Source of the DNA: Phycisphaerae bacterium
GTDB taxonomy: Bacteria > Planctomycetota > Phycisphaerae > UBA1845 > Fen-1342
DNA length: 64,000 bases
Direction of reading: 5' to 3'
NCBI GenBank assembly: GCA_028279405.1
Contig: JANQNU010000090.1
Location: forward strand, 62,001 to 126,000
Within the stretch, counting starts at the first letter, position 1. The number at the start of each line of letters is the position of its first letter. Positions 3,771-61,679 of the stretch are shown piece by piece. The notes under the pieces were generated by a model. It saw nothing but the letters and a program-made list of their open reading frames with translations, was not told where the DNA came from and made no database searches. The position numbers and the translations under genes were made by a program.

Positions 3771-4601
3771 ATGAGAAACCACCCACTTCGGATCGGTCTG
3801 CTCGTCTTCGGGCTCCTGGTCGGCGGCGGCTGCCAGTCACTGACGCCGCAGGAGTTGGACTGGCTGGACGGAGCGCGCGCGGACTTCGAGGCCAAGCGGT
3901 ATGAGCGAACAGTCGAGCAACTGGCGCTGTTCATCGACCGCGTCGAAAATGCGCCGGAGCTTGCGGACGCGTACTACCTCCGTGGCATTGCGAGCGCCAA
4001 GCTGCGCCGGCGGCGGGACGCGTACGATGATCTGAACGCGGCGATCCGGTCGTACCCGAACCCGGAGGTGCAATGGAAGGCGCGGGTGACGCTGGGTGTC
4101 ATGCTCTTCGAGGATCGGCGCTGGAGTGATGCATCGATTGTCTTGCGAGACGCGCTTGATCGGATGCCGCGTCGCAGGAAAGCCAACCCGCTCGGCATGG
4201 GGGAAACCGGTTCCCGGCGCAACCCGACGCCATACGTCCTTTATCTGCAAGGGCTGAGCCTCGAACGGAGCGGCGCATGGAGCGAAGCGCTCGTTCCGTT
4301 CGAACGAATCACCCGCGACTTTCCCAACTCGCCGCAGTCGGAAACGGCCCGACTGCGATTGCGCGTTCGACCGACGCACTTCGCTGTCCAGTGTGGCGTC
4401 TTCGGACGCGCAAACAACGCCGACCAGCGTCTGACCGAGCTACAGCGCGCCGGGTTTCGGCCTTATTTGAAGCAGGAACCGCGTGGTCGCAAGCTGGTGA
4501 ACGTCGTGCTCGTCGGCCAATATCGCGATTACCAACAGGCGTTGCGAGAGCTGGCCCGGGTCAAGGGCTTCGTCCCGGACGCGGTCTTGTGGCCGTCATA
4601 G
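3771..4601 (+). CDS. TPR and SPOR-domain lipoprotein
   Basis: A 276-residue protein with a signal peptide and lipobox (LLVGGGCQS). Residues about 30-190 form TPR-like helix pairs (YYLRGIASAKLRRRRDAYDDL, YLQGLSLERSGAWSEALVPFE). The last 75 residues, beginning HFAVQCGVFGRANNAD and containing VVLVGQYRDYQQALREL, form a SPOR domain. SPOR domains bind peptidoglycan stripped of stem peptides, often at division sites. An envelope protein that scaffolds or senses septal wall is the likely role. It follows the GT-C gene by 49 bases in the same direction. Confidence 0.8.
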   Translation: MRNHPLRIGLLVFGLLVGGGCQSLTPQELDWLDGARADFEAKRYERTVEQLALFIDRVENAPELADAYYLRGIASAKLRRRRDAYDDLNAAIRSYPNPEVQWKARVTLGVMLFEDRRWSDASIVLRDALDRMPRRRKANPLGMGETGSRRNPTPYVLYLQGLSLERSGAWSEALVPFERITRDFPNSPQSETARLRLRVRPTHFAVQCGVFGRANNADQRLTELQRAGFRPYLKQEPRGRKLVNVVLVGQYRDYQQALRELARVKGFVPDAVLWPS

Positions 4602-13309: not shown

Positions 13310-13327
13310 AAGCTAAGGGGTCCACCT

Positions 13328-13514
13328 GGCAGGTCTTCTGACTCTCGGGCGCGCGACCGAAGTCGCACCTACTCACCACACCTTCTCAGCCGCAAATGCG
13401 GACTAATGGACTTCCGTGGCTTTCGTTCCCGATCACAGCGGCGGGGCCGTCCCGGACTTTCACCGGATTCCCTATTCTCCTGCCGACACCCAGTCGGCAA
13501 GCACCAGTGACCGC
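13328..13514 (-). ncRNA. Cobalamin (B12) riboswitch aptamer
   Basis: On the minus strand the core is clear: GGGAATCCGGTGAAAGTCC, then GGACGGCCCCGCCGCTGTGA, then a P6-P9-like region, and finally AGTCAGAAGACCTGCC, which matches the B12-box consensus at the 3' end. The 5' end has the paired GCTTGCCGACTGGG/GTCGGCAGG region. The aptamer binds adenosyl- or related cobalamins and usually represses transport or biosynthesis genes. Here the first genes downstream encode secreted surface proteins rather than a known transporter or enzyme. Confidence 0.95.
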
Positions 13515-13519
13515 GGGGG

Positions 13520-13548
13520 AAGCTACCGGCCCGCCACGAACGCGTCAA
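13520..13548 (-). promoter_or_regulatory. Predicted sigma-70-type promoter of the riboswitch unit
   Basis: On the minus strand TTGACG (-35) and TAGCTT (-10) are separated by 17 bases. The predicted start falls just before the first paired element of the cobalamin riboswitch, which supports the call although the -10 is weak. Confidence 0.5.
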
Positions 13549-61350: not shown

Positions 61351-61679
61351 TGGGCCCTGCAGGGCTCGAACCTGCGACCAACGGATTATGCAAGCTGGTC
61401 CCGCGATTTCCCGCGGGCTTGGACTGTCCCTTCACCCGTTCTGGGTGGGCCGCCGTCCAGTCTCTACACACGCCCGCCGACCGACTTCGCGGTCGACTGC
61501 TTGGCTCGGGATTGGCATGGGTCTTTCGACCGGTAGCGTTCCCCGACTTTGACGGCCTGCGAATTCGACGTTCCCGCCGAAAAGACCCAACGTCCGCGAG
61601 CATGCCTCGTATCGGAAACGAGGTTTAGCGTCCCGGACGCAATCAAGTCCGCCGCTCTAACCGACTGAGCTAAGGGCCC
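61351..61679 (-). tRNA. tRNA(CAU), probably tRNA-Ile2 (or elongator Met), interrupted by a group I intron
   Basis: The two exons are 61646-61679 (34 nt) and 61351-61390 (40 nt). Together they give a complete cloverleaf: acceptor GGGCCCT/AGGGCCC with A as discriminator, a D arm with AGCTCAGTCGGTTAGAGC, a TpsiC arm GCAGG/CCTGC around TTCGAGC, and an anticodon stem GCGGA/TCCGT. With the intron removed the anticodon loop reads CTCATAA. CCA is not encoded. The body resembles tRNA-Ile2 (CAU read as AUA after lysidine modification by TilS), but elongator tRNA-Met has the same anticodon and cannot be excluded. Confidence 0.92.
61391..61645 (-). ncRNA. Group I self-splicing intron in the tRNA anticodon loop (255 nt)
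   Basis: Minus strand. The catalytic core of a group I intron of the bacterial tRNA type (IC3-like) is clear: CCCGAGCCAAGC (61499-61510), GTGTAGAGACTGGACGG with the P7 5' strand (61453-61465 holds its core), the P8 hairpin CCCACCCAGAACGGGTGAAGG, and GGACAGTCCAAG with the P7 3' strand (61418-61429), followed by a P9 hairpin. It ends in G (61391), as group I introns must, and the 5' exon ends in U. P1 can form between exon CGGAC and intron GTCCG; a U-G wobble at the splice site needs a one-base bulge. No homing endonuclease ORF is present. The Azoarcus tRNA-Ile(CAU) intron is the nearest known relative by motif. Confidence 0.88.

Follow-up and report, generated by a model that had tools for sequence, protein, structure and literature searches.

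What interrupts a tRNA gene in the middle of its anticodon loop, can such a gene still yield a tRNA, and where did the interruption come from? These questions are raised by a tRNA gene with anticodon CAU in the genome of a Phycisphaerae bacterium (GCA_028279405.1). It lies on contig JANQNU010000090.1, of which we analyzed a stretch of 64,000 nucleotides (hereafter the window).

A tRNA(CAU) gene interrupted between U33 and C34

When allowed to consider introns, ARAGORN identified a tRNA(cat) at c[61351-61679], with a 255-nt intron after gene base 34, i.e., after U33, and a spliced product of 74 bases. Run without introns, it found no tRNA anywhere in the window. The gene is on the minus strand, as are all the parts of it described below; the preliminary description of the locus had not given the strand. 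The 5' exon (61646-61679, ending ...GGACU) extends through U33. The 3' exon (61351-61390) begins with C34, A35, and U36 (CAUAAUCC...) and terminates in the discriminator A, the CCA not being encoded. Joined, the two halves restore the anticodon loop CUCAUAA. The same layout is found in uninterrupted relatives: in 19 genomes of the same family (a count that leaves out the family genomes G003, G005, G006, and G009), the halves are joined exactly at U33/C34. A boundary slid by one base is ruled out by mismatches at both ends, since the intron starts with U and the 3' exon with C, while the 5' exon ends with U and the intron with G. Hence, the ARAGORN cloverleaf, the fixed boundary, and the 19 empty sites uphold the preliminary description, in which a 255-nt insert splits a CAU tRNA at U33/C34.

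The spliced tRNA opens with GGGCCC, carries the pairs C4-G69 and C5-G68, and matches the tRNA-Ile2(CAU) of the family. In tRNA-Ile2(CAU), C34 is turned into lysidine. The two pairs are the TilS determinants known in E. coli, and the genome encodes TilS; together with the CAU anticodon, these are the features of a TilS substrate. Among the 51 tRNA-model matches in the genome, there is no other tRNA-Ile2(CAU) and no tRNA-Ile(UAU). The other CAU genes are uninterrupted and comprise two clear initiators (L172, of which L154 is a repeat, and L178), one initiator-like gene (L169), and one of elongator type (L171). The interrupted gene is thus the only tRNA-Ile2 gene seen in this draft assembly, which is 95.5% complete and from which a second one could be missing. 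Because tRNA-Ile2(CAU) is single-copy in the assembly and TilS is present, splicing should be needed for the reading of AUA. In other words, the decoding of AUA in this genome appears to depend on one self-splicing RNA.

The insert has the hallmarks of a group I intron

We built a covariance model (R2) from 30 bacterial tRNA introns outside the host family. It contains none of the four introns of the family, i.e., the present one and its sisters in G004, G007, and G020. R2 scored the insert (61391-61645) at 85.4 bits (E 1.3e-21) and also detected the three sister introns (78-83 bits). The search with the Rfam group I model suggested in the preliminary description succeeded in part: RF00028 matched the insert with 28.8 bits (E 3e-5), which is under its gathering score of 50, a cut-off for detection that does not define group I introns biologically. 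In a control search, RF00028 had matches in 4 of 14 control genomes and none in the host genome.

The core reads GUGUAGAGACUGGACGGC...GUGAAGGGACAGUCC, like those of bacterial tRNA (IC3) introns, and the intron ends in a terminal G, so that the earlier proposal of a group I core with a terminal G is borne out. Three features speak for an IC3-like intron: a P3-P8 catalytic core with a conserved P7 and P4/P6 junction, as indicated by the R2 score and the pair counts; a U.G wobble at the 5' splice site in P1 of all four introns; and a P9.0 with compensatory changes before the terminal G. In the alignment of the four introns, the 48 named pairs are 99% paired. Six pairs are changed on both sides, versus 2.3 in shuffles and 0 or 1 in slid structures. 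The folding energy of the whole intron is only modestly better than that of shuffles (z -1.96).

From this comparative evidence, we hold with high confidence that the only tRNA-Ile2(CAU) gene of the genome is interrupted by an IC3-like group I intron that lacks an endonuclease gene and whose splicing would join U33 to C34. Very probably, the 255-base RNA cuts itself out. Protein-type tRNA splicing was set aside in view of the complete group I core. A decayed intron that no longer splices and has inactivated the tRNA gene would fit the Rfam score under the cut-off, but is highly improbable, given that the catalytic helices are all intact and compensated in four divergent genomes, that both exons are intact, and that no substitute tRNA is seen among the tRNA matches of the genome.

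Anatomy of the intron and predicted splicing

The 5' splice site is separated from the guide by a long hairpin, the P1 extension (61589-61645), which has a like fold in the four introns and a length of 57-119 nt. The sequences of its P1a stem differ almost throughout among the four, yet are paired in each. The internal guide sequence G|GGUC (61584-61588) starts 58 bases into the intron and is invariant and pairing in all four. Its GGUC pairs with exon bases G30, A31, C32, and U33 to form P1, with U33.G at the cut, and its first G can pair with C34 (P10). Since G30 and A31 are used by both P1 and the anticodon stem, the two helices compete. A guide placed by eye in the first 20 bases of the intron was dropped, as no consistent P1 is found there.

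Downstream of the guide, the four-intron comparison delineates a P2 hairpin (61566-61579) with a GGAA tetraloop (GCAA or GGGA in the relatives). The 5' strand of P3, GGCCGUC (61551-61557), shows a compensatory C-G to U-A change with its 3' strand (61448-61457). P4 and P5 (61506-61546), the latter capped by GAAA, include two compensatory changes in P5. They are followed by P6 with a variable hairpin and a conserved GAGCCAAG entry (61470-61505), recognized from homologous introns and the R2 model. The guanosine-binding helix P7 is made of GACU (61459-61462) and AGUC (61422-61425), which pair in all four introns. The comparison also yields a P8 hairpin (61433-61447) and a P9 hairpin with a GAAA loop (61400-61417). 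Finally, the 3' strand of P9.0, CUU, stands with the terminal G at 61391-61394 and pairs with AAG (61418-61420). In the four introns, P9.0 reads AAG/CUU, GAG/CUC, GAG/CUU, and AAU/AUU, with two pairs compensatorily changed.

With this architecture, the intron would most likely follow ordinary two-step group I splicing. In the precursor, P1 would form between G30-A31-C32-U33 and the guide GGUC, and a guanosine bound in P7 would attack after U33. The terminal G would then occupy the guanosine site, and the bond preceding C34 would be attacked by the freed U33, which would ligate U33 to C34 and restore the loop. TilS could then modify C34 of the mature tRNA to lysidine, enabling it to read AUA. 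As C34 is the first base after the cut, lysidine is presumably made only once splicing has occurred. We infer from the sequences that splicing occurs, that it depends on RNA only, and that lysidine is made afterwards.

The P1 extension contains an internal loop reading GCUAAA...CAUGC in the present intron and GCUAA(A/G)...(C/U)A(U/C)GC across the four, which we take to resemble the 11-nt GAAA-tetraloop receptor. An intron from Pyrinomonadaceae (L127) has CUAAG...UAUG at the corresponding place. A strict scan for the receptor motif in 238 introns gave 3 matches, one of them an artefact, versus 2.2 in shuffles. As this is barely above chance, the identification of the loop as a GAAA receptor is only a lead.

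Comparison with other tRNA introns

A pattern scan over bacterial genomes found at least 116 stretches with such cores, mostly in tRNA genes. Among them, the tRNA-Ile2 introns of beta-proteobacteria lie after CAU (36/37) and have the guide GUG, in agreement with the contrast that the preliminary description had drawn with the Azoarcus site. The Azoarcus-type tRNA-Ile2 intron is also reported from Acidovorax and Burkholderia (PMC8450103). The introns of this type resemble the present one in their tRNA, tRNA-type core, U.G at the 5' cut, terminal G, and P9 GAAA loop. They differ in having a 3-bp guide, GUG, directly before P2, whereas the present intron is at 33/34, uses GGUC, and has a P1 extension of 57-119 nt in its family. 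Hence, by site and guide it is not of the Azoarcus type. It also falls outside the Azoarcus-type clade in our best tree, with the proviso that joining the two is unrejected by an AU test on a core of about 155 columns.

The 33/34 position is not unique, since tRNA-fMet introns occupy it in many phyla and tRNA-Ile2 introns are found there in Accumulibacter (L094), Pyrinomonadaceae (L127), and Verrucomicrobiota (L085). The site had thus been given too much weight at first. The tRNA-fMet(CAU) introns, found in Nitrospirae, Actinomycetota, Planctomycetota, and Patescibacteria and also in cyanobacteria, share with the present one the site in a CAU tRNA, a long P1 loop, and the terminal G. They differ in the host tRNA, as the initiator genes of the present genome are uninterrupted and its intron is in tRNA-Ile2, and in several of them the core is preceded by a reading frame, which the present intron lacks. 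The introns L094, L127, and L085 are in the same tRNA and at the same site, and L127 also shares the loop in the P1 extension, but their cores are distant from that of the present intron. A literature search with thin coverage of subscription journals found no published planctomycete tRNA group I intron. The intron seems to represent an unreported lineage, from a family that is probably planctomycete, and it gives tRNA-Ile2 group I introns a second insertion site.

The assignment of the host to the planctomycetes is consistent with seven matches to SBP_bac_10 (PF07596) in its genome, a domain absent from the 14 control genomes. This falls short of proof, and a search of the host genome for PSCyt2 (PF07583) gave no match.

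Distribution in the family and history of the intron

Three genomes of the same family, G004, G007, and G020, have homologues of the intron at this very site, with lengths of 334, 275, and 325 nt, respectively. Across 114 genomes of the order, the intron was found in the four family members only, other matches being distant. Across 392 genomes of the phylum, there were only weak matches, including the fMet intron L204. The flanking reading frames share almost no neighbours across the family, so we found no conserved gene context there. In one further family genome, a tRNA-Ile2 3' half (L012, G003:C2:9841-9914) has no normal 5' half upstream; it may be what is left of an attachment site or result from a join in the assembly.

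In the gyrB tree, the present genome (G000) and G020 are sisters, and G004 and G007 stand apart. The introns themselves form one clade (98/99), in which G007 is closest to G020. A gain with some exchange between members and one old gain with losses both fit these data. A serious possibility, which we place somewhat below even, is that the intron was ancestral to the family and disappeared repeatedly, as opposed to having been gained by members or exchanged among them. In its favor, the introns form a single clade, and one gain plus two losses could account for the three changes on the gyrB tree. Against it, the carriers are scattered, a tree with all carriers in one clade comes close to rejection (p-AU 0.059), and in the intron tree it is G007, not the sister genome G000, that pairs with G020. 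This patchy pattern, together with the clean empty sites, makes the family a good setting for studying intron gain and loss.

The preliminary description had suggested an independent acquisition. The separate clade of the four family introns makes it plausible, but the AU tests reject no alternative: core trees of about 155 columns, which cannot decide the origin, leave unrejected a grouping with Azoarcus-type introns, with fMet-type introns, or with the remaining tRNA-Ile2 33/34 introns. One such alternative, which we regard as possible but unlikely, is a jump of a 33/34-type tRNA-fMet intron into tRNA-Ile2 by reverse splicing or homing. Such a move could occur because the CU|CAUAA loop is common to the initiator, elongator Met, and Ile2 tRNAs. 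Introns in tRNA-fMet from several phyla, Planctomycetota among them, have the same site, the same terminal G, the same two guide bases beside the cut, and a long P1 loop. Against this, the four introns do not group with fMet introns in the core tree, and the joined tree is 28.5 log units worse (AU p 0.16). Slightly less probable in our view is an ancestry shared with the Azoarcus-type introns, with the splice site shifted by three bases from 36/37 to 33/34. These introns are in the same tRNA and give the best non-family scores with the family model R1 (73-83 bits). However, site and guide differ (GUG for CAU versus GGUC for GACU), and the Azoarcus type forms a tight separate clade (joined tree 11.2 log units worse, p-AU 0.35). 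A phage or viral source was also considered and rejected: among 100 viral loci scored with the family model, the best reached 75 bits, versus 188-208 for the family.

It is also conceivable, if doubtful, that the 33/34 tRNA-Ile2 introns of the family and of Acidobacteriota constitute an undescribed lineage in which a GAAA-tetraloop receptor in the P1 extension docks L5 or L9. If true, a tetraloop of the intron itself would dock on the splice-site helix. To our knowledge, this layout has not been described for Azoarcus-type introns.

Other introns and elements observed

In the tRNA-fMet 33/34 introns L037, L073, L111, and L204, from Nitrospirae, Muproteobacteria, Methylomirabilota, and a genome of the present phylum, the core is preceded by a reading frame (HLVEADKRQRKPRS...), which may encode the endonuclease known from fMet introns of cyanobacteria. 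Genes for tRNA-Asn in Actinomycetota and for tRNA-Thr and tRNA-Phe in Patescibacteria also harbor group I introns at position 33/34 or close to it (L088, L089, L050, L122, L087, and L099 for the three tRNAs). ARAGORN misreads the anticodon when the intron of a CAU tRNA starts with CAA or UGA, calling it Leu or Ser (L084:555-1177; L085 around 4112-4291), which would hide intron-bearing CAU tRNA genes in annotations. Elsewhere in the window, there is a cobalamin riboswitch at 13310-13523 on the minus strand (99 bits).

In viruses, 120 stretches (IMG/VR contigs L235-L354) have tRNA-type group I cores, many of them in phage tRNA genes (e.g., L301:3860-4147, L305:11300-11585, and L292:7566-7901). 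In 2014, a review knew of phage group I introns only in protein-coding genes (PMC3984707). Where they are in tRNA genes, the viral cores frequently belong to tRNA arrays of phages (Leu, Arg, Thr, Met, and others).
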